The notes beneath the pieces were generated by a model. It saw only the letters and a list, made by a program, of their open reading frames with translations, was not told the DNA's origin and ran no database searches. A stretch of 8,514 nucleotides of DNA, taken from NCBI GenBank assembly GCA_046760705.1, contig JBHIER010000118.1, positions 1 to 8,514 of the forward strand, written 5' to 3'. Positions within the stretch are counted from its first letter, which is position 1. Every line of letters begins with the position of its first letter. This document shows, one piece after another, positions 1 to 8,514 of this stretch. The translations under genes and the position numbers were made by a program. Origin of the DNA: JBHIER01 sp046760705 [NCBI: bacterium]. Lineage in GTDB: Bacteria; JBHIER01; G020348925.

Positions 1-196
1 TTTTGCCGGCAACCTTCTCCACATTCATGCCTTCCAACAGCTCTTTGTGTCTCTGTTCCTCCTTTGCCATCTCCTTGAAAGCCTCTTTCATGTGAAACCT
101 CTCCACCCGCCGGCTGGCCTCTTGGTAAAAAGCTGCCGCCTCCGCTTCTTTCTCCGCGGCAAAGCCAATGACTTCCTGCAACTCTTTAGGTTCCAT
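1..196 (-). CDS. Ferritin-like diiron protein, N-terminal part (runs off window)
   Basis: The first 65 codons of a gene whose 3' end lies outside the window. The peptide starts MEPKELQEVIGFAAEKEAEA and contains the first half of a ferritin-like diiron site: a helix with a Glu in EKEAEAAAFY, then AKEEQRH, an ExxH motif about 30 residues later. This helix pair is typical of rubrerythrin-family four-helix bundles, which reduce peroxide or oxygen or oxidise iron in the cytoplasm. The start is set by GGAGGA four bases before the ATG. It lies 120 bp downstream of the desulforedoxin gene and is probably cotranscribed with it, which suggests a redox partnership. Whether a rubredoxin domain follows cannot be seen. 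The family assignment is fairly safe; the precise function is unknown. Confidence 0.75.
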   Translation of the reverse strand, partial: MEPKELQEVIGFAAEKEAEAAAFYQEASRRVERFHMKEAFKEMAKEEQRHKELLEGMNVEKVAGK

Positions 197-267
197 TGCA
201 TCCTCCAATCAAAGCTTTCTGCATGTTCACGGTTTCACAGACACAGAATTGGCTCTTCCCACAAAAC

Positions 268-290
268 CCCAAAGGGTAACAGACTTTGGG
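268..290 (-). terminator. Weak hairpin after the desulforedoxin gene
   Basis: On the minus strand CCCAAAG pairs with CTTTGGG (7 bp) across a 9-nt loop and is followed by GTTTTG. It lies about 27 bp beyond the desulforedoxin stop codon and about 70 bp before the next gene. The stem is short and the T run is only four bases, so it is at best a leaky terminator or attenuator between the two genes. Confidence 0.3.
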
Positions 291-316
291 CTGGCTCAAA
301 GCTCTCACGGAATTGA

Positions 317-433
317 TCAATCCTTCAATTCCATCGGCTGATTGCAGCAGACGAGTGTTCCCGCACCGGCCTTGACCACAGTGACTTCCTGTCCGCAAAT
401 ATTGCAGACGTATGTCCTGCCCTGCTCGGCCAT
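317..433 (-). CDS. Desulforedoxin, stand-alone Fe(SCys)4 protein, 38 aa
   Basis: A 38-residue protein beginning MAEQGRTYVCNICGQEV and ending CCNQPMELKD. The four cysteines C10-x2-C13 and C29-C30 are the desulforedoxin pattern (CxxC ... CC), and the Gly-rich AGAGTLVCC turn matches Desulfovibrio gigas desulforedoxin, which is 36 residues long. Desulforedoxins are cytoplasmic homodimers with one rubredoxin-like iron per chain and act in electron transfer; the same fold is the N-terminal domain of desulfoferrodoxin. AGGAGGTGA 6-8 bases before the ATG makes it a convincing gene despite its size. A longer ORF in another frame over the same DNA has no recognisable features. It precedes a ferritin-like gene. 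The superoxide reductase in this window lacks this domain, so the protein may serve it in trans (inference). Confidence 0.88.
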   Translation of the reverse strand: MAEQGRTYVCNICGQEVTVVKAGAGTLVCCNQPMELKD

Positions 434-593
434 TCTGGTTCACCTCCTCTCCAAAATGAGTTTAGTGCTCTGGTTCGCAACTATGGTGACGTATTGTACT
501 GTCTGTCCCAAAATGCGTTCATAAAGAAAGGCCCTATCGTTTGCTGTCATTGTGTATGTAATGATCTTACGTCATCGTATCTACGAACATGTG

Positions 594-830
594 TACTTAG
601 TGTCTGAACGAAAACTCATGATTTATTAGTGTCATTGCTCGGCCTGTTAAATAATGACAATTTTACGGGGCGAGGAGTGAGGACCGAGCGACGAAGCAAT
701 CCCCTCTGGCACAGGAGATTGCTTCGGCAAAAAACGCCTCGCCCTGTTTAATTTTAATTACATTTATTAAACGGGGCGAGCAATGACAGCATAACGGTAA
801 TTTAGGTAGTTTTCGTTCAAACACTACTTA
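594..830. mobile_element. MITE-like element with terminal inverted repeats and target duplication
   Basis: The non-coding stretch at 600-824 (225 bp) is bounded by 17-bp inverted repeats, GTGTCTGAACGAAAACT at 600-616 and the complement of GTGTTTGAACGAAAACT at 808-824, with one mismatch. A perfect direct repeat TACTTA flanks it at 594-599 and 825-830, as expected of a target-site duplication. Inside is a second inverted pair, GTCATTGCTC (631-640) and GAGCAATGAC (778-787), then ACGGGGCGAGG / CCTCGCCCTGT (665-675 / 737-747, one mismatch), then a central hairpin. There is no ORF of useful length, so any movement would need a transposase supplied in trans. The parent IS family is unknown to me. 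It occupies most of the 433-bp gap between the desulforedoxin gene and the diiron pair; nothing else in that gap could be assigned. Confidence 0.75.
692..726. repeat. Central hairpin of the MITE-like element
   Basis: CGAAGCAATC at 692-701 pairs perfectly with GATTGCTTCG at 717-726 across a 15-nt loop, with CCT/AGG able to extend the pairing inside the loop. The surrounding text (GCGAGGAGTGAGGACCGAGC, then GACGAAGCAATC) resembles a short repeat I recall from many unrelated bacterial draft genomes (GCGAGGAGCGAAGCGACGAAGCAATCTC-like, quoted from memory). It may be an older repeat captured inside, or forming the core of, the larger element. Confidence 0.6.
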
Positions 831-866
831 GTTGATATCCCCCAAAGTCTCAAGTCATCCCAACCT

Positions 867-1406
867 TTACGGTCCAGCTTCGTATATGTGTCCCTCCTCC
901 CAGGCAAACCAGAGATCGGGGGTCTTCAGATAGATGTACGTGTTTTGAAGGGCATCATAATGGTCGGACTCATCGCGGGCCAGAGATTCCAAAAGCGCTT
1001 TTCCCTCCGGATCTTCAATCTCGTTTTGCGCGTGGGTGTAAAATTTGTACCCCTTGTTCTCCATCTCCATGGCCATTTCCAGAGCTTTGAGCTCGTCCAC
1101 ATCGGCCGGGACAATAGCCTTCACCTTCTCCTTGGCCTGACTGAAGAGAGTTTTAAATCTGAATGTATCCCGCTCTTCTGTTCCCGGGGCTGATTCACCC
1201 CATTTCCCCTCAGCCTTCATCTTTTCATAGGCACTCTTCAGCTTCTTCTTATGTTCGGTCTCCTCTCTGGCCAGCCACTGTAGCATCTTCTTTCCCAGAG
1301 GATTGGACACCTTTTCACTGGCACTGCAGTAAAAATCGTACCCGTCCTGTTCAAACTTGAGGGCATATTCCAATATCTCCCTCTGACTGCCAAGAACGTC
1401 TTCCAT
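867..1406 (-). CDS. Ferritin-like diiron protein (rubrerythrin family, no rubredoxin domain), 179 aa
   Basis: Two ferritin-like helix pairs with a complete set of carboxylate and His ligands: E19, E49-x2-H52 (REETEH), E116 and E146-x2-H149 (RDESDH). Each pair also carries the GYxFY helix signature (residues 22-26 and 119-123). No CxxC motif is present, so a C-terminal rubredoxin domain is absent. The family reduces peroxide or oxygen or oxidises ferrous iron in the cytoplasm. The start at 1406 is preferred: GGGGGGTGA lies just upstream. An in-frame ATG eight codons earlier abuts the previous stop codon and has no ribosome site. It follows the other diiron gene by 25 bp, apparently in the same operon. 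The duplicated helix-pair layout suggests origin by gene doubling (inference). Its electron donor is unknown. Confidence 0.82.
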   Translation of the reverse strand: MEDVLGSQREILEYALKFEQDGYDFYCSASEKVSNPLGKKMLQWLAREETEHKKKLKSAYEKMKAEGKWGESAPGTEERDTFRFKTLFSQAKEKVKAIVPADVDELKALEMAMEMENKGYKFYTHAQNEIEDPEGKALLESLARDESDHYDALQNTYIYLKTPDLWFAWEEGHIYEAGP

Positions 1407-1431
1407 TGTCACCCCCCTCAAAAGATTCACA

Positions 1432-1911
1432 TTATTGAGCCAGGCGCTTCTTCAATTCTGCCAATTTTCTGATGTGGCCCTTCTCCTGTTCGATCAGTTC
1501 CGCGACAACCTTCTGATCCGACTCGGAGACATAGGGCCTAAATTCTCTGAAATAGAGGATGGAGTCCTTCTCAAAACCGATGGCCAGCCGAAAGACCTCT
1601 TTGTCGTCAATGGCTCTCTGGACAAACTCTGTGGTGTCGATCCCGGCATAGAGGCGACCGTCAATTACCCCATCCATGTACGCCTGCATCTCCTCGGTGT
1701 ACCACGGAGAGTGAGACTCCTCGGGCAGTCTATCCCGGATCTTCGAAAAGGTCTCTATGTGCCTCATCTCCTCTTCGGCGAGAAATTGAAAAAGACCCCT
1801 TGTGTCGTCGCCCTGGCTCAATTCGGACACAGTGGAGTAAAATCCCCTTCTCTTCCTTTCCTTCTCAATTGCGGCTTCAACAATTTCACGGGCGGAAAAA
1901 AGAACAGCCAT
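1432..1911 (-). CDS. Ferritin-like diiron protein, 159 aa
   Basis: A ferritin-like protein with diiron ligands at E18 (IEKERKRRGFY), E48-x2-H51 (AEEEMRH), E114 (GFEKDSILYF) and E143-x2-H146 (IEQEKGH). It has no rubredoxin or other cysteine motif. It starts MAVLFSAREIVEAAIEKE, and GGGAGGTGA lies six bases before the ATG, so the start is secure. It is the first gene of a two-gene unit with the next diiron protein (867-1406). The two share general architecture but are diverged, so they are probably not redundant. Expected roles are peroxide or oxygen reduction or iron handling in the cytoplasm, inferred from family membership only. Confidence 0.82.
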   Translation of the reverse strand: MAVLFSAREIVEAAIEKERKRRGFYSTVSELSQGDDTRGLFQFLAEEEMRHIETFSKIRDRLPEESHSPWYTEEMQAYMDGVIDGRLYAGIDTTEFVQRAIDDKEVFRLAIGFEKDSILYFREFRPYVSESDQKVVAELIEQEKGHIRKLAELKKRLAQ

Positions 1912-1952
1912 TGTCTCACCTCCCTAGGGTTATAAACCGAGAATATCCATTG

Positions 1953-2125
1953 GCCACAGAGGCACGGAGGACACAGAGTTGATTTTATTTAAGATAGATT
2001 CGGAATTTCTCTTGCCACATTTCACCTTCAAGTGAATAGATCCATGTAAGTTAAGGTATTGTTAATATTAATTCTCTGTGTCTCTGCCTGCCCCGTTGCG
2101 AAGCATTACGGAGTGACTCTGTGGC
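1953..2125. repeat. Diverged inverted repeat between zupT and the diiron operon
   Basis: GCCACAGAG at 1953-1961 is matched by CTCTGTGGC at 2117-2125, and ACACAGAG at 1971-1978 by CTCTGTGT at 2074-2081. The right arm carries about 25 extra bases between the two blocks. The left arm resembles a CACAGAGG-CACAGAGGACACAGAG type repeat that I recall in many bacterial intergenic regions. It has no ORF and no clear target duplication. It is probably a decayed palindromic element. It fills much of the 259-bp gap 1912-2170, which must also hold the diiron-operon promoter. Confidence 0.5.
2021..2036. promoter_or_regulatory. Small dyad upstream of the diiron operon
   Basis: TTCACCTTCAAGTGAA has arms TTCAC and GTGAA separated by six bases, about 110 bp before the start of the 159-aa diiron gene. 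It could be an operator, but I found no convincing -35/-10 pair positioned by it and no named regulator whose consensus it matches well. Confidence 0.2.
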
Positions 2126-2170
2126 GCATAATTTGGGATAAAACGTTCCACAAAAAAAGCAGGATTTCGT

Positions 2171-2920
2171 TCATTTCAACAGCCAGAGGCTCAGGGCCAT
2201 GATTGCCATTCCTGCTACGACACCCACAATAGGAAGGTGTTCCCTACCGAAGGCCCGCGAGGCTGGGACAAGTTCGTCCAGCGAGATGGAGACCATGATG
2301 CCGGCAACAGACGCAAGAACCCAACCCAAGAGGGTCGGCGTCAAGAAAGGCCACAGAATAAGTGCGGCCAATGCGGCGCCCACGGGTTCACTCACACCGG
2401 ACAGAAACGACCAGAGGAATGCTTTCCTTCGGTTGCCAGTAGCGGCATAGACTGGGGCGTATACCGCCAGCCCTTCGGGGATGTTGTGGAGGGCAATGGC
2501 CACCGCGATGGCCATTCCAAGGCGCACGTCCTTGAGCGCGCCGGCAAAGGTGGCCATGCCTTCGGGAAGGTTGTGAATCCCTATTCCCAGAGCAACCAGC
2601 AGCCCGGTCCGCATCAGCCTGCCTTTATGGCCCTCGTGCTGACCGATGTAGTCGTGGGGAACAAGAAAATCTATCAGAAAGAAGCTCGCCATCCCCAGAA
2701 AGAACCCCGCGTGGGCGGACAGAAATCCGATCGATTCGATGGACCCCTGGAGCAGCTCGACAAAGGAGACCAGGATCATCACCCCAGCGGAAAAGCCTAA
2801 TGTGGCGCTCATCAAACGCGGTCCGGGCTTCCGCACTACCAGGCCGAGCCCACTTCCGATAGTGGTCGAAAGGCCTGCGGCGGCCGTCAGCAGCAAGGCA
2901 ATGGCGACGTTGGGTTCCAT
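2171..2920 (-). CDS. zupT: ZIP-family divalent metal transporter (ZupT-like), 249 aa
   Basis: An inner-membrane protein with about eight hydrophobic helices. The paired ZIP signatures HNLPEG (116-121) and HNIPEG (145-150) form the transmembrane metal site. A His-rich loop (PHDYIGQHEGHKG, 88-100) precedes them, and SEPVGA (177-182) is the usual conserved motif in helix six. The length matches E. coli ZupT (257 aa). Family members import Zn2+, Fe2+, Mn2+ or Co2+; which metal is carried here is not visible. The ribosome site is modest (GGGATGAG before ATG). The gene starts 45 bp after the aspartate ammonia-lyase stop codon, so the two are probably cotranscribed. Metal supply would suit the iron proteins around it, but that link is inference. 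No convincing terminator follows, although a T7 run lies about 15 bp downstream. Confidence 0.85.
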   Translation of the reverse strand: MEPNVAIALLLTAAAGLSTTIGSGLGLVVRKPGPRLMSATLGFSAGVMILVSFVELLQGSIESIGFLSAHAGFFLGMASFFLIDFLVPHDYIGQHEGHKGRLMRTGLLVALGIGIHNLPEGMATFAGALKDVRLGMAIAVAIALHNIPEGLAVYAPVYAATGNRRKAFLWSFLSGVSEPVGAALAALILWPFLTPTLLGWVLASVAGIMVSISLDELVPASRAFGREHLPIVGVVAGMAIMALSLWLLK

Positions 2921-2965
2921 ATCTCATCCCACATCCTGATCTCCCGACGCATCGGGCTCGGGCCT

Positions 2966-4387
2966 TCACACTACCCCCTTCGTCTCGGAATTTCTGGAAA
3001 TTGGACGTTGACCGGTAACAACCTCGGGGTCCAGAATCTTTTCCAACTCCTCTCTGCTCAAAATTCCCTTTTCCAAAACGACGTCTACAACCGATGTTCC
3101 CCTTCCTTCGGCCTCTTTGGCCAGCTCGGCCGCCTTCAGATACCCAATCCGAGGGCTCAACAGGGTCGCCAGAGCAATGCTCTGCTCGAAAAAGCCACGG
3201 CAGCGTTTGGTGTCAGCGCTTATACCGCGGACACATTTTTCAATAAACACCGGCAAAAAATTTTTGAGAATCTCTATTGATTCCAAAAGGTTGTGAATCA
3301 TCACCGGCATCATGACGTTGAAATCGAGCTGACCCGCCTGAACGGCCATGGAGATGGTCAGGTCATTGCCCACCACCTGATAGGCGATCATGTCGAGACA
3401 CTCGGCCATGACCGGATTCACCTTGCCGGGCATCATGGATGAACCCGGCTGAACCGGCGGCAGGCCAATTTCGGCCAGACCCGTCCTGGGCCCGGAACTG
3501 AGAAGCCGCAGGTCGTTGGCCACCCTTATCAGCTCCAGAGCGAGCTCTTTGAGTCCACTGGAGACGGCGGCTGTGGGCAAAAAGCTCTGCATTGCCGCTC
3601 TTGAATCCGATGCCGCGCTCAATGTAAGCCCTGAAATGTACCCCAGATTTCGGATTACAGTCGCTCTATACAAAGGTGGAGCGTTTACGCCTGTGCCTGC
3701 GGCTGTCCCACCGAGTGCCACCTCCTCCAAGAGCTTACTTCTCTCCACAATCTGATCCCTGGCTCGTCCAATGGCTGCCCCGTAGGCTAAAAACTCCTGA
3801 CCAAGGGTGATGGGGACAGCGTCCTGAAGGTGGGTTCTGGCAGATTTTATGACCGCGGCAAACTCCTTCCCTTTTGCCTCTAAAGCCGAGGCCAGATCGT
3901 CCAAGACTCCAACCAGTTCTTCGACCATGAAGAGGGTCGATATATGCATAGCCGTGGGGAAGGTGTCGTTGGTGGACTGGGCGAGGTTGACGTGGTCGTT
4001 AGGGGAAAGGTATCCATAATTGCCCCGCTCCCGGCCCAAAATCTCCAGAGCCCGGTTGGCCAGCACCTCGTTCACATTCATGTTGAAAGAGGTGCCGGCC
4101 CCGGCCTGATAAACGTCCACCATCCACTGATCAGCAAATCTCCCGGCCAGCGCTTCATCACAAGCCTGGAGGATGGCCCTGCCCCTCTCTGTGTCCAGAC
4201 TCCCCAGTTCCATGTGAGTGGTGGCGCAGGCCTTTTTGATCATCAGATAGGCCCGGATAAATTGCGGATGCATGCATCTCCCACTGACCGGGAAATTCTC
4301 AGTGGCTCTCAAGGTCTGAATGCCATAATAGGCATCAGCCGGGACGTTCCTTTCTCCCAGAGAGTCCCGTTCTGTGCGATACTCCAC
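2966..4387 (-). CDS. aspA: Aspartate ammonia-lyase, 473 aa
   Basis: Catalyses L-aspartate = fumarate + NH3 in the cytoplasm. It belongs to the fumarase/aspartase superfamily: the signature GSSMMPGKVNP (315-325) is the mobile loop with the catalytic serine. Other substrate-site blocks are GAGTSFNMNVNE (96-107), NDHVNLAQSTND (130-141) and ARTHLQDAVPITLGQEF (183-199). The N-terminus (YRTERDSLGERNVP, YYGIQTLRATENF) and the GAGTS spelling, where class II fumarases have GSGTQ, favour aspartase. Fumarase is the alternative, and MPGKVNP is found in both. The start is GTG at 4387: TGA stands in the same frame only nine bases upstream, so no earlier start exists. The ribosome site is poor, which hints at modest translation. 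It leads a unit with the ZIP transporter and has no obvious functional tie to the oxidative-stress genes on either side. Confidence 0.87.
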   Translation of the reverse strand: MEYRTERDSLGERNVPADAYYGIQTLRATENFPVSGRCMHPQFIRAYLMIKKACATTHMELGSLDTERGRAILQACDEALAGRFADQWMVDVYQAGAGTSFNMNVNEVLANRALEILGRERGNYGYLSPNDHVNLAQSTNDTFPTAMHISTLFMVEELVGVLDDLASALEAKGKEFAAVIKSARTHLQDAVPITLGQEFLAYGAAIGRARDQIVERSKLLEEVALGGTAAGTGVNAPPLYRATVIRNLGYISGLTLSAASDSRAAMQSFLPTAAVSSGLKELALELIRVANDLRLLSSGPRTGLAEIGLPPVQPGSSMMPGKVNPVMAECLDMIAYQVVGNDLTISMAVQAGQLDFNVMMPVMIHNLLESIEILKNFLPVFIEKCVRGISADTKRCRGFFEQSIALATLLSPRIGYLKAAELAKEAEGRGTSVVDVVLEKGILSREELEKILDPEVVTGQRPISRNSETKGVV

Positions 4388-4548
4388 TGTATATCAAAAC
4401 ACCCAGAAAGGTACTTTTTTTCAGTTTCGAAAACCCTGTTTTGTTGCGCGTATAAAAGACTCACTTTAAAAGAGCAGGAAGGAGCCTCCGAATTGAACGG
4501 CTGAGAAATCCAGGAGCTCCTTTCTGTATCTCTCTTTCCGGTCGTCCT

Positions 4549-4956
4549 CTATTCCAACAGCGATGAAAACTGGCTCAGATGTTCCTCCTCGTCTGCCAAA
4601 ATCCCCTCCAACATCCGCCGCGTCACAATGTCCTCCTTGCACGTTTCGATCAACTCCTTGTACAGATCGACGGCCTCTTCCTCGGCCTTGACATCAGCGG
4701 CGATCATGCTCTTCAAATCGCCGCCGACTTTGATCTCCCGCGGTTTCGTGGTCGGAGTCCCACCCAGAAAGTCGATCCGCTCGGCCAACATCTCGGCATG
4801 CTTCATCTCGGTGATCGATATCCCCTTAAAAATACCCTTCACCGCCTGGCTCTCTATGCCTTTGGCCATAACGTGATGCCAAAAATACTGGGTTATAACG
4901 GACAGTTCTCGCTCCAATGCCCTGTTCAATCCCTCAACGATCTTCTCCTTATCCAT
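4549..4956 (-). CDS. bfr: Bacterioferritin-like protein lacking helix E, 135 aa
   Basis: A ferritin-like four-helix bundle of bacterioferritin type (ALERELSVITQYFWHHVMA, EMKHAEMLAERIDFLGG, DEEEH). Ferroxidase ligands are E17, E50, H53, E93, E123 and H126. M51, next to E50, matches the Met52 that ligates heme in E. coli bacterioferritin. The start at 4956 is fixed by AGGAGG six bases upstream; a longer frame begins inside the preceding superoxide reductase gene and is not credible. The protein ends only nine residues after H126, whereas E. coli Bfr has about 28 more. The short helix E that lines the fourfold channels is therefore missing, and a 24-subunit cage is not assured. It is the last gene of the five-gene stress operon, 26 bp after the superoxide reductase. 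The likely role is iron oxidation or storage coupled to peroxide use. Confidence 0.8.
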   Translation of the reverse strand: MDKEKIVEGLNRALERELSVITQYFWHHVMAKGIESQAVKGIFKGISITEMKHAEMLAERIDFLGGTPTTKPREIKVGGDLKSMIAADVKAEEEAVDLYKELIETCKEDIVTRRMLEGILADEEEHLSQFSSLLE

Positions 4957-4982
4957 CTCGACCTCCTCTTTGACCTTTAAGG

Positions 4983-5348
4983 TCAACTGGTGACTTGAAC
5001 CGCTTTTTCTGACTCCCACATGCCATGCAGGTTGCACCTGGCGATGGCCCTGAGAGTCGTATCCTCAAAGAGTTTGAGAGTTAGACAGACCGGGCTGGTG
5101 CTCACAGTGGGGGTGAAATCCACCCGCGAGAGAAATGCCTCCCCGGCGAACAACTCAAGCCACTGGATGTGGTGTCCTCCCTCATCGGGGTGGGACAACT
5201 CTTTGCCCACCGTGACTTTTACCTCAAAGGGCTCTCCCCTCCTTACCGTATCTGGCGCCTCGATGGTGGGCACATGCTTCTTCTCAAGATCGGTGGGATT
5301 GGCCGGGTCCTTGACCCGATTGATCCCTTTAAACAGGTCTTGGCTCAT
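4983..5348 (-). CDS. sor: Superoxide reductase, neelaredoxin type without desulforedoxin domain, 121 aa
   Basis: Reduces superoxide to H2O2 at a mononuclear Fe(His)4(Cys) centre in the cytoplasm without releasing oxygen. Ligands visible are H25 (KKHVP), H53 (SHPDEGGHHI), H59, and C105-N-L-H108 in RCNLHGMWE. The N-terminus has no CxxC...CC desulforedoxin domain, so this is the one-iron (neelaredoxin, class II) form. The start at 5348 is chosen because AGGAGGTGA lies eight bases before this ATG; a GTG nine bases earlier is part of the ribosome site itself. Oddity: the usual E-K-H-V-P, whose Glu is the sixth iron ligand in the oxidised state, reads E-K-K-H-V-P here, placing Lys where Glu is expected. 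It sits between the peroxiredoxin, which can remove its H2O2, and the bacterioferritin-like gene. Confidence 0.92.
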   Translation of the reverse strand: MSQDLFKGINRVKDPANPTDLEKKHVPTIEAPDTVRRGEPFEVKVTVGKELSHPDEGGHHIQWLELFAGEAFLSRVDFTPTVSTSPVCLTLKLFEDTTLRAIARCNLHGMWESEKAVQVTS

Positions 5349-5395
5349 TCGTCTCACCTCCTTTGCTTGTTAAGCTTTTCCCAACTTTGAAGCCA

Positions 5396-5875
5396 TTAGC
5401 GTTGCTCAATCTTTTTCAGCTCGGTTAGAATGGCTTGTACGTCGGGAGTCTCTCCTATGGGGTAAATTTTAATATAACGAATAATACCCCTTTTATCAAT
5501 AACAAAAATAGCCCGCTCGCTGAAGCCCTCCTCTCTCAGCACACCGTAGCGCTGGGCCACGTCACCGTGGGGCCAGAAATCACTGAGCAACGGATAGGAC
5601 TTGACCCCTATCGATTCCGCCCAAGCGGTTTTGCTGGGCTGACTGTCAACGCTGATACTCAGAACCTGAGTATTTAAGCCTTCGAACTCAGCAATATTCT
5701 TCTCGAAGGCCTGCATCTCCGATTGTCAGACCGACGTCCAGGCCAAGGGATGAAAGGCAAGAACGACGTTCTTTTGATCCCGATACTCATTGAGACTCAC
5801 ACTGTCTCCCAAGTGGCTGAGCAGGGTGAAATCAGGGGCTTTATCTCCGACTTTTGATTGAACTTGATCAGCCAT
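5396..5875 (-). CDS. Selenocysteine-containing peroxiredoxin (in-frame TGA read as Sec), 159 aa
   Basis: A thioredoxin-fold peroxiredoxin of AhpC/TSA (AhpE/BCP-like) type that reduces H2O2 and organic peroxides. The frame starts with ATG at 5875 behind GGGAGG, 12 bp after the wrbA stop codon. It reads through KVGDKAPDFTLLSHLGD, VVLAFHPLAWTSV, then TGA (5728-5726, codon 50), then QSEMQAFEKNIAEF and SISVDS...LLSDFWPHGDVAQRYGV...SERAIFVIDK to TAA. The TGA is exactly at the peroxidatic position of P-x3-T-x2-C, with T47 before it and the conserved Arg as R121. No other cysteine exists, so this would be a one-Sec enzyme needing an external thiol reductant. Restart at M54 is unlikely, since its GGAG abuts the ATG. 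A downstream stem-loop could act as SECIS. Alternative: a nonsense mutation of a Cys codon. Automated callers would report only a 106-aa C-terminal fragment. Confidence 0.85.
5678..5728 (-). promoter_or_regulatory. Candidate bacterial SECIS element following the Sec UGA
   Basis: After UGA (5728-5726) come 15 nt, then GCCUUCGA (5710-5703), a 17-nt loop GAAGAAUAUUGCUGAGU, and UCGAAGGC (5685-5678), a perfect 8-bp stem. The loop starts 23 nt after UGA and begins with G, which fits the known spacing and loop-G preference of bacterial SECIS elements, although the loop is longer than usual. A competing stem, UCGGAG/CUUCGA with the 8-nt loop AUGCAGGC, starts only three bases after UGA and includes a G-U pair. 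Either could be the SelB site; neither is proven. Confidence 0.5.
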
Positions 5876-5887
5876 TTTAAACCTCCC

Positions 5888-6517
5888 TTACTTTTGCACA
5901 ACCTCTCGTCCGGCCCCCAGTTCCTTGGCCACCTGGGCCACCCGCTGCCCCAAAGTTTTGGCCATAGCCAACTCGTCCGCCGAAGGCTCTTTCTCCCCTT
6001 CCATCCCAGCCACCGTGGACGCACCGTAGGGCGTCCCTCCTCCAGTGGTCGTTAGGAGCCGCTGCTCAGAGTAGGGTATCCCGACCACAATCATGCCGTG
6101 ATGCAGGAGCGGCTTAAACATGGAGAAGAGCGTCGTCTCCTGGCCACCATGCAGCGATGCCGTGCTGGTGAATACACCTCCCACCTTGCCGATGAGGGCC
6201 CCCTTGGCCCAGAGCGGCCCGGTCTGGTCAATAAAATTCTCCACCTGGGCGCACATGTTCCCATAGCGCGTGGGCGAACCGAGAACAATAGCCTCATAGT
6301 CTCCCAGCTCCTCAGGCCTGGCCACCTCCACGTCCCTCTGAGCCTCCTTCGCCTCTTTGACGCCCGGAGTCTTTTCAACCACCTCTTGAGGCAGCAAGTC
6401 AGGCACCTGCTTCAGCACACCTTCAACCCCATCTACAGCCCTCACCCCCTCAGCCACAGCCTGAGCCAGCTTAAAAACGTGGCCGTACATGCTGTAATAG
6501 AGCACCAAGACTTTCAT
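5888..6517 (-). CDS. wrbA: NAD(P)H:quinone oxidoreductase, WrbA flavodoxin-like, 209 aa
   Basis: A cytoplasmic FMN enzyme that reduces quinones by two electrons, avoiding semiquinone and superoxide formation. Flavodoxin-fold landmarks are LYYSMYGHVFKLAQAVAEG (6-24, FMN phosphate loop), LGSPTRYGNMCAQVENFIDQ (79-98) and the family-typical GGGTPYGASTVAG (159-171). HHGMIVVGIPY (139-149) is also conserved. Length matches E. coli WrbA (198 aa) with a short extension. The start at 6517 is chosen for the canonical MKVLVLYYS terminus and GGAGGAG about ten bases upstream; a longer frame reaches back into the ferredoxin gene. It follows the ferredoxin by 53 bp and precedes the peroxiredoxin by 12 bp, so the three are almost certainly one operon. 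Confidence 0.92.
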   Translation of the reverse strand: MKVLVLYYSMYGHVFKLAQAVAEGVRAVDGVEGVLKQVPDLLPQEVVEKTPGVKEAKEAQRDVEVARPEELGDYEAIVLGSPTRYGNMCAQVENFIDQTGPLWAKGALIGKVGGVFTSTASLHGGQETTLFSMFKPLLHHGMIVVGIPYSEQRLLTTTGGGTPYGASTVAGMEGEKEPSADELAMAKTLGQRVAQVAKELGAGREVVQK

Positions 6518-6570
6518 GGCCCAATCTCCTCCACTTTTAGATTTGCCTTTAGAACACCGTCCACTGTGTG

Positions 6571-6840
<270 letters not shown>

Positions 6841-6846
6841 TCACGA

Positions 6847-6852
6847 AATATA
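6847..6852 (-). promoter_or_regulatory. -10 element of the ferredoxin-wrbA-peroxiredoxin-sor-bfr operon
   Basis: TATATT on the minus strand, predicting transcription start near 6840-6841 and a leader of about 21 nt with the ribosome site. The hexamer 17 bp upstream (AAGGCT) is a poor -35 box, as expected of a promoter that needs an activator bound at -41.5. Confidence 0.6.
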
Positions 6853-6873
6853 CCCTCAGAAAAAGAATCAGCC

Positions 6874-6889
6874 TTTGACGTAAGTCAAA
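6874..6889. promoter_or_regulatory. CRP/FNR-family operator, HcpR-like
   Basis: TTTGACGTAAGTCAAA is a perfect 6-4-6 dyad. It fits wTTGACnnnnGTCAAw, the consensus I recall for HcpR, a CRP/FNR-family regulator of nitrosative and redox stress genes in Desulfovibrio; classical FNR sites are TTGATnnnnATCAA. Its centre is 41.5 bp upstream of the start site predicted from the TATATT box, the standard class II activator position. It lies between the methyltransferase stop codon and the ferredoxin start. The bound regulator is inferred; no regulator gene is present in the window. Confidence 0.7.
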
Positions 6890-6945
6890 AACGTGGCTTC
6901 TCTGGAAAACTCTCCTGTGCGGCTCTGGGGACGGTGCAGATGGCC

Positions 6946-7959
6946 TCATAAAGGCTCCGCCTTCGCCGCTTCCACCATCCAGGCCTGCTCGGTCAGTTGA
7001 ATTTGCCTCAAATTCCCGAAACCCGCCTCCTTCAACCAACCCTCCACTTGTGTAAAGGTATACGTATCTCCCGCCTGGGTGTTGACCAGCATGTTGATGG
7101 CGAAGAGCAATGTAAAGAGCGGTCCGGATCGATCATCATCGGTGAGAAAGTCCTTGACGACAATGCGGCCGCCCGGATTGAGGGCGTGGAAACATTTGCT
7201 CAACAGAAGCTGGATGTCATCAGGGGAGTGGCTGTGAATAATGTTGGAGAGAAACACCATATCGTATCCACGGCCGATGTCGTCTTTCAAAAAATCCCCG
7301 GCGTGCGTGGTCACCCGATGGGCCACTTTTGCCCGTTCAATCTGCTCCTGGGCAATAGAACACGGATCTGGCAGATCAAAGACGGTTGCCCGCAACTGAG
7401 GGTATTTTTTGGCAAAGGCGATGGCATAGGAGCCCGGTCCACCACCCAAGTCCAAGAGCGTGGTCACACCGGTCAAATCGAGTTTCTCCAACACCTGCTC
7501 AACACTGATCAGCGCGCTGTTGGCCATGGCCAGAATGAAATGGCGAGTCGTCTGCGCCTCCGGCTCTTTAAAAGCAATGGTCAAATCGTCGGCGGGTAAT
7601 CCAGTCCTCATGACCTCCCGCAGGGTGGACCAACTGAACCACAGTCGGTACCGATGGCGGAGACTATCCCCCTGATAGTAGGGAGATCCGGCCACCAATA
7701 GCTCCTTTGACACCTCAGAATTTCTGTAGGTGTTATCGCTCTTCTCCAGGTACCCCATTCCGGCCAAGACATCCAGAAGCATCCGCGTGGGCCTCGGATC
7801 GGTTTGCAACGTGGCCGCCACCTCATCCACGGTCAGACTGCGACCATCAATCTTGGTGAAGAGATCGTACTCATTGGCCACCAGAATGACCTGCGACTGC
7901 ATAAAGACCGAGGCCACGGCGGATAGGTCCTCAACCCTTTTGGCCACGTCTTCCAGCAT
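6946..7959 (-). CDS. SAM-dependent O-methyltransferase-like protein (Methyltransf_2 type), 337 aa
   Basis: The N-terminal third (about 1-90) is a winged-helix dimerisation domain (VANEYDLFTKIDGRSLTVDEV, PRPTRMLLDVLAGMGYLEK). The C-terminal part is a class I methyltransferase: motif I TTLLDLGGGPGSYAIAFAKK (166-185), the acidic ribose-binding residue in VFDLPD (193-198), GDFLKDD (221-227), FLSNIIHSHSPDD (236-248) and LNPGGRIVVKDFL (260-272). The layout is that of plant-type O-methyltransferases and hydroxyneurosporene or acetylserotonin methyltransferases; H242 or H244 could be the catalytic base. The substrate cannot be told. The start at 7959 follows AGGAGG; a longer in-frame extension to 8085 only overlaps the rubrerythrin tail. 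It begins 25 bp after the rubredoxin-domain stop codon, suggesting cotranscription with rubrerythrin. Confidence 0.85.
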   Translation of the reverse strand: MLEDVAKRVEDLSAVASVFMQSQVILVANEYDLFTKIDGRSLTVDEVAATLQTDPRPTRMLLDVLAGMGYLEKSDNTYRNSEVSKELLVAGSPYYQGDSLRHRYRLWFSWSTLREVMRTGLPADDLTIAFKEPEAQTTRHFILAMANSALISVEQVLEKLDLTGVTTLLDLGGGPGSYAIAFAKKYPQLRATVFDLPDPCSIAQEQIERAKVAHRVTTHAGDFLKDDIGRGYDMVFLSNIIHSHSPDDIQLLLSKCFHALNPGGRIVVKDFLTDDDRSGPLFTLLFAINMLVNTQAGDTYTFTQVEGWLKEAGFGNLRQIQLTEQAWMVEAAKAEPL

Positions 7960-7984
7960 CAATAGCCTCCTTTCTCCCAGGTGC

Positions 7985-8086
7985 TCAGAATTTCCTGAAC
8001 TTCTCCTCAGGCGCATTACAGATAGGACACCTGTTAGGAGCATCGCCCTCGACCGTGTAGCCGCATACCTCACAGATATGCACATC
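7985..8086 (-). pseudogene. Rubredoxin domain of rubrerythrin, out of frame with its gene
   Basis: Thirty-three codons starting DVHICEVCGYTVEGDAP and ending APEEKFRKF, then TGA. The motif CxxCG...CPxC is a textbook rubredoxin-like iron site and the normal C-terminus of rubrerythrin. It directly follows the ferritin-like part but in another frame: the DNA reads CTTGGGCGATGTG, where CTTGGCGATGTG would give continuous ...DVTLGDVHICEVCGY. It has no start codon or ribosome site of its own. One surplus G at 8088-8090 therefore separates it from the gene. The intact coding sequence suggests a sequencing or assembly error, or a very recent mutation. Confidence 0.85.
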
Positions 8087-8489
8087 GCCCAAGCGTCACA
8101 TCCTCCCCAGCCTCAACCGCCTGCTTGGCCTTCTGGTACATGGCCGCGTGGATCTTCTCAGCCTCCAGGGCTCCGTAGATACTCCTCTCAGCACCTTTCT
8201 CCCCCTGTAGTTTGGCCACTGCATCGTAGGCCGGATACATCTCCTCCACTTCAAAGGTCTCTCCCTCTATGGCTGCCTGCAAATTAGCCGGGGTTTCGGC
8301 GAAGTCACCCAATGTTTTGAAATGGTTGGTAGCATGAACTTGCTCGGCGAAGGCTATGGCCCGAAAGAGCCGGGCCACGTTCCCTTTCCCCTCCTCTTCC
8401 GCCTTGTCGGCGAAAATCAAATACCGCATGTGGGCCTGGCTCTCTCCGGCAAAGGCCGCCCTCAGATTTTGCTCAGTCATCAGTTTCAC
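8070..8489 (-). CDS. rbr: Rubrerythrin, ferritin-like domain (frameshifted before the rubredoxin domain)
   Basis: Rubrerythrin is a cytoplasmic peroxidase that reduces H2O2 to water at a diiron site fed by its rubredoxin domain. Here the ferritin-like part is complete: FAGESQAHMRY (E16), AEQVHATNH (E49-x2-H52), the E75-E83 glutamates in IEGETFEVEE, and EAEKIH (E111-x2-H114). The GTG at 8489 is chosen as start because AGGAGGTGA sits seven bases upstream; the ATG three codons later is too far from it. At codon 134-135 an extra G shifts the frame, giving a foreign tail RCAYL and a stop at 8070. With one G removed the protein would be 167 aa, the usual short-rubrerythrin length, ending at 7985. 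If the shift is real, the enzyme lacks its own electron relay and would depend on an external rubredoxin-like donor. Confidence 0.88.
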   Translation of the reverse strand: MKLMTEQNLRAAFAGESQAHMRYLIFADKAEEEGKGNVARLFRAIAFAEQVHATNHFKTLGDFAETPANLQAAIEGETFEVEEMYPAYDAVAKLQGEKGAERSIYGALEAEKIHAAMYQKAKQAVEAGEDVTLGRCAYL

Positions 8490-8514
8490 GATATCACCTC
8501 CTTTCACTTTAATT

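Follow-up and report, generated by a model that had tools for sequence, protein, structure and literature searches.

A probable selenocysteine-containing peroxiredoxin of the AhpE type encoded among bacterial oxygen-defence genes

Gene content of the window

Oxygen-defence genes are abundant in the 8,514-nucleotide stretch of DNA analysed here (1-8514; hereafter the window), encoding rubrerythrin, a ferredoxin, WrbA, a predicted selenocysteine (Sec) peroxiredoxin, superoxide reductase, ferritin and rubrerythrin/ferritin-like proteins. The peroxiredoxin gene (5396-5875, minus strand) has as its upstream neighbour wrbA (5888-6517, minus strand), encoding an NAD(P)H:quinone oxidoreductase that exceeded the cut-offs of NCBIfam models PRK03767 and TIGR01755, and as its downstream neighbour a gene for a superoxide reductase with a neelaredoxin/desulfoferrodoxin domain (4983-5348, minus strand; PF01880, E 3.3e-29; TIGR00332 over its cut-off). 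The window also contains genes that we take, from their sequences, to encode a ZIP transporter, an aspartase/fumarase-like protein and a methyltransferase. No Rfam RNA family reached its gathering score in the window and ARAGORN found no tRNA there.

A small frame at 319-433 (minus strand; MAEQGRTYVCNICG...CCNQPMELKD) presumably encodes a desulforedoxin-like protein. Nested inverted repeats occupy 598-826, with arms at 598-616/808-826 (95%), 630-654/764-788 (88%) and 692-708/710-726 (88%); our guess is a miniature element or a structured intergenic region. The rubrerythrin gene (8070-8507, minus strand) loses its frame at about 8090-8097, and its C-terminal part, which we take to be rubredoxin-like, is intact in another frame (P0003), due either to a real frameshift or to a sequencing error. 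With this gene out of frame, sequence errors or genes in decay may be present in the contig.

A peroxiredoxin frame with a single in-frame TGA

Translation of 5875-5396 on the minus strand, from an ATG at 5875-5873 to a TAA at 5398-5396, gave 159 residues with one internal stop, a TGA at codon 50 (5728-5726, minus strand). The original prediction, to which we have now added the strand, described a peroxiredoxin frame interrupted by this TGA alone, and no second in-frame stop was found; the other five frames of 5396-5875 contain 3-12 stops each. As was also predicted, the TGA occupies the peroxidatic position of a P-x3-T-x2-C motif: residues 43-50 read PLAWTSVU (P43-LAW-T47-SV-U50), which follows the pattern Pxxx(T/S)xx(C/U) and would make the predicted Sec the peroxidatic residue. 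Cys codons are absent from the entire gene, as claimed. Nine other codons of the gene lie one base from TGA and 52 lie one base from any stop, which makes it unlikely that a stop arising by chance would fall on the one catalytic residue. Read from the sequence, a ribosome site (GGGAGG) precedes the ATG in the 12-nt gap after wrbA (5876-5887, minus strand), in agreement with the good ribosome site and the spacing first described. The expectation that standard gene callers would truncate the gene was likewise borne out, since ordinary ORF calling returned only a 106-aa C-terminal piece starting from the ATG at 5716.

Genome-wide recoding of TGA to another amino acid would be a further way to read such a frame, and nothing beyond the open frame itself speaks for it. 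Given that the neighbouring sor, aspA and ZIP genes terminate in TGA, and that an internal TGA is found only at the catalytic position, we consider it scarcely credible.

Third-position GC is 0.53-0.57 in the peroxiredoxin gene compared with 0.64-0.71 in wrbA, sor, aspA and ZIP, and from this lower value the gene was possibly acquired from elsewhere.

The Pfam AhpC-TSA model (PF00578) matched residues 9-135 (E 1.7e-36), a match that spans codon 50 and so confirms the homology predicted on both sides of the TGA. Among the 60 of 143 PDB sequence matches listed, the best seven were entries for Mycobacterium tuberculosis Rv2238c/AhpE (E 8e-35 to 1e-32), with the next at 2e-24. An AlphaFold2 model of the window protein, made with a 35-row alignment as input, had a pLDDT of 95.9, and its first 12 PDB fold matches were M. 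tuberculosis AhpE (TM 0.89-0.91, 41-43% identity). Judged by sequence and predicted fold, AhpE is the closest of the solved structures to the window protein. No NCBIfam model was reached at its cut-off by the protein, including PrxU (NF040737), the named Sec-peroxiredoxin model, at which it scored 68 bits, below the 270-bit cut-off. Such genes are easily missed, since this one reaches no NCBIfam cut-off and is truncated by ORF calling.

TGA and cysteine codons in related genes

To find relatives, a single genome from each species was scanned with six 8-residue peptides taken from the window protein, none of them spanning codon 50, and a locus was counted as a relative if it encoded a homologue at a tblastn E-value of 1e-3 or better. 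The scan returned 117 stretches and, from these, 75 loci encoding a relative, the best at 60% identity. The original prediction had called for a comparison with homologues carrying Cys or Sec at position 50, and codons for Cys and for predicted Sec were both recovered: the homologous codon is TGA in 53 of the 75 relatives and TGC or TGT in 22, counts that are not frequencies for the whole family because the scan finds close relatives only. According to the names on the sequences, the 53 TGA rows belong to Chloroflexota (40), Myxococcota (6), Acidobacteriota (3) and three other phyla (one each), with one unplaced. Similarity extends to both sides of the TGA, as in L012, which is 58% identical to the window protein over 153 columns. 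The in-frame UGA thus falls where homologues carry Cys or predicted Sec, the arrangement expected of a selenoprotein gene. No relative was found in viral contigs with either the single protein or a three-row alignment, and all of 389 plasmid records were below 60% identity, the best among the 10 listed being 44%.

In a tree of 77 rows the window joined the Cys rows L038, L043, L083 and L084 at 100/99; these four form a clade at 100/97, to which the window is sister rather than nested within it. (L074, a fragmented match, was excluded from both trees and retained in the shuffle tests described below.) The tree requires six Sec/Cys changes whose direction it does not show, and it fits either course of events, in that the window may have kept Sec or may have gained it. 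The end branch of the window is 0.48, compared with 0.59-1.08 for its four Cys sisters.

This branch length bears on the possibility that the TGA is a real stop in a pseudogene or truncated gene that yields no more than the 106-aa C-terminal part. A frameshifted rubrerythrin gene lies 2 kb away and the ATG at 5716 could restart translation, both of which would suit such a gene; the frame, however, has no second lesion, similarity to L012 is seen on both sides of the TGA, the window branch is shorter than those of all four Cys sisters, and the C-terminal piece would be without the active-site residue. We therefore regard a pseudogene as very improbable.

The locus most like the window's is that of L038, in what is labelled a Gemmatimonadota MAG, and it is partly syntenic: it contains matches to 7 of 11 window proteins, with 81% identity for rubrerythrin, 76% for the ZIP transporter, 68-73% for three ferritin-like proteins, and lower values for superoxide reductase (36%) and ferritin (30%). 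The wrbA, ferredoxin, methyltransferase and aspartase genes are absent from the L038 locus, and a wrbA 49% identical to the window's is present elsewhere in that genome. Across 24 genomes compared, wrbA had matches in 10, none above 57% identity, which gave no placement of the source organism. We infer that the window's organism is related to that of L038.

A SECIS-like hairpin downstream of the TGA

A candidate bacterial SECIS hairpin is located at 5676-5712 (minus strand), with an uninterrupted 11-bp stem in which positions 14-24 after the TGA pair with positions 40-50 (MFE -14.2 kcal/mol). Folding of the 54 nt after codon 50 was compared with synonymous-codon shuffles within each gene. The mean z was -2.6 in 54 TGA rows (window included) compared with -0.1 for the Cys forms (22 rows; p 1e-10), so that the hairpin of the TGA group exceeds the demands of protein and codon use. 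A variant allowing a single hairpin around the apical site gave -2.9 for the 53 TGA relatives versus -0.15 for 24 Cys rows, and an uninterrupted-helix score beat shuffles at p <0.05 in 30 of the 53 TGA relatives and in none of the 24 Cys rows.

Covariation was counted over the pairs of a named structure in 42 rows, consisting of 41 of the 53 TGA relatives and the window. For a two-helix family structure, picked by eye from folds of the very sequences tested, 52 cells were changed on both sides versus 25.6 in shuffles, and pairing and the covariation score both peaked with the structure unslid; its pairs with both-side changes and its further pair types were equalled or exceeded at a slide of +3. 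The other structure was the window's own pairing; on the family alignment its number of pairs changed on both sides did not rise above that of shuffles, of which 103 of 500 reached it. As judged from these folds, a SECIS-like element is clear at the family level.

The helix score of the window, 24.6, is higher than those of 49 of the 53 TGA relatives and than any among 24 Cys rows, where the maximum is 15. Among dinucleotide shuffles of its hairpin, 16 of 200 folded as well, and the full hairpin stretch folded at z -1.59. Because the hairpin was not significant against synonymous shuffles (36/300, 136/1000 and p 0.097 in three tests; z -1.35), a SECIS element in the window itself is only suggestive. 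The amino acids of the window protein favour such a helix, and the Cys form L038, at 97/1000, did no worse in the same 1000-shuffle test than the window.

It might be argued that an ordinary Cys peroxiredoxin was given its TGA by a mistake in sequencing or assembly, since the four clade sisters carry TGC, that another gene of the contig is frameshifted 2 kb away and that the window hairpin alone is not significant. Such an error would nevertheless have to strike the single catalytic codon and yield the exact codon found in 53 of 75 relatives, in a gene that branches beside the Cys rows and not among them, and whose downstream helix scores well above the maximum of 15 in any Cys row; we consider it improbable.

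Selenocysteine machinery in the genomes of relatives

From tables read by hand, Sec machinery was scored as present on a tRNA-Sec match of at least 60 bits or on SelB over its curated cut-off. The 60-bit threshold was chosen because weak tRNA-Sec matches turn up in every genome and the tRNA-Sec family cut-off was passed by 5 of 14 control genomes. Strong tRNA-Sec, SelB or both were present in 51 of the 53 genomes carrying the TGA form, among which we counted genome G008, holding both forms, versus 13 of 21 genomes with only Cys forms among the loci found (Fisher p 4e-4). The genomes of L008 and L051 account for the other 2 of the 53, with neither a strong tRNA-Sec nor SelB over cut-off. In the first 10 genomes, SelA was over its cut-off in all 10 and SelD in nine. 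The genome of L038 encodes SelA, SelB, tRNA-Sec and a SelD whose gene contains an in-frame TGA.

Proposed activity and reductant

Given the open frame, the exchange of a conserved TGA with Cys codons, the family hairpin, the predicted AhpE fold and the Sec machinery of relatives observed in this analysis, we conclude, with a probability of about 0.92, that this is a genuine selenoprotein gene encoding an AhpE-type, one-residue (1-'Cys') peroxiredoxin that contains Sec, which upholds the one-Sec peroxiredoxin originally proposed.

What follows is what we infer about how this organism decodes UGA, how catalysis proceeds, what the reductant is and how the enzyme is linked to superoxide reductase. 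SelB and tRNA-Sec, aided by the hairpin just downstream, would insert selenocysteine at UGA codon 50. In peroxiredoxins generally, activating roles fall to the P-x3-T motif and to a conserved Arg. By analogy with AhpE, a Sec selenolate activated by these elements would attack H2O2 or an organic peroxide, and the selenenic acid, in a protein without a resolving cysteine, would then depend for its reduction on an outside thiol or glutaredoxin-like partner. The original prediction further held that an adjoining superoxide reductase supplies the H2O2; the adjacency stands on the PF01880 and TIGR00332 matches, and since the downstream neighbour has a superoxide reductase domain, it is plausible that it would make H2O2 for the peroxiredoxin.

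In M. tuberculosis, the reduction of AhpE proceeds by way of mycothiol or mycoredoxin (PMC8945050). Among the relatives found here, a C-terminal YCxxWCxxC extension of glutaredoxin type is present in 35 of the 53 TGA relatives and in none of the 24 Cys relatives; most of the Chloroflexota Sec-peroxiredoxins (loci among L002-L042) carry it, for example L012:8121-8735 and L003:8127-8750, and it corresponds to the Pfam Glutaredoxin domain in both relatives tested (n=2). The presence of this extension in so many TGA relatives suggests that the reductant of Sec-peroxiredoxins may be of the glutaredoxin type. More tentatively, and with greater doubt than confidence, we envisage a lineage of AhpE-type selenoperoxiredoxins with an ancient Sec that gave way to Cys on several occasions, the window retaining Sec in an otherwise Cys clade and the Chloroflexota branch having solved the problem of the missing reductant by fusing a glutaredoxin domain.

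Comparison with known peroxiredoxins

Work by Sohling in 2001 reportedly concerned a Sec-containing peroxiredoxin of E. acidaminophilum. Later publications list Prx TxxU in tables above the part headed 'Predicted', citing Sohling 2001 (PMC13188914, PMC9312934), cite the same work (PMC8533274), count 43 peroxiredoxin genes with TXXU (PMC1088965), and report 12 peroxiredoxin selenoproteins, five Cys-to-Sec events and three cases in Anaeromyxobacter dehalogenans (PMC1794560). The premise that selenocysteine peroxiredoxins with Sec at the peroxidatic position exist is thus supported by PMC1088965 and PMC1794560. Sec-peroxiredoxins with TxxU are already known and the window gene adds to a known kind. 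A description of a Sec AhpE, or of its glutaredoxin fusion, was not found in the titles and abstract openings searched, a partial coverage of the literature that is no proof of absence. The gene adds a Sec form, amid oxygen-defence genes, to a peroxiredoxin clade that is otherwise Cys-only here, and the Sec/Cys pairs together with the natural glutaredoxin fusions make testable both the benefit of Sec in a one-residue peroxiredoxin and the identity of its reductant.

Like the TxxU Sec-peroxiredoxins, the window protein is a member of AhpC/TSA with TGA/Sec as the peroxidatic residue of PxxxTxxU, but it differs in scoring 68 bits against the 270 required by the NCBIfam PrxU model. M. tuberculosis AhpE (Rv2238c) is its best sequence match (E 8e-35) and resembles it in fold (TM 0.90, 43% identity) and in the one-Cys design, with a single catalytic residue and no resolving Cys, whereas the window protein has a predicted Sec in place of that Cys and contains no cysteine at all. 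The Cys peroxiredoxins of L038, L043, L083 and L084 (the HPLAWT clade) form one clade with the window and carry TGC where the window has TGA.
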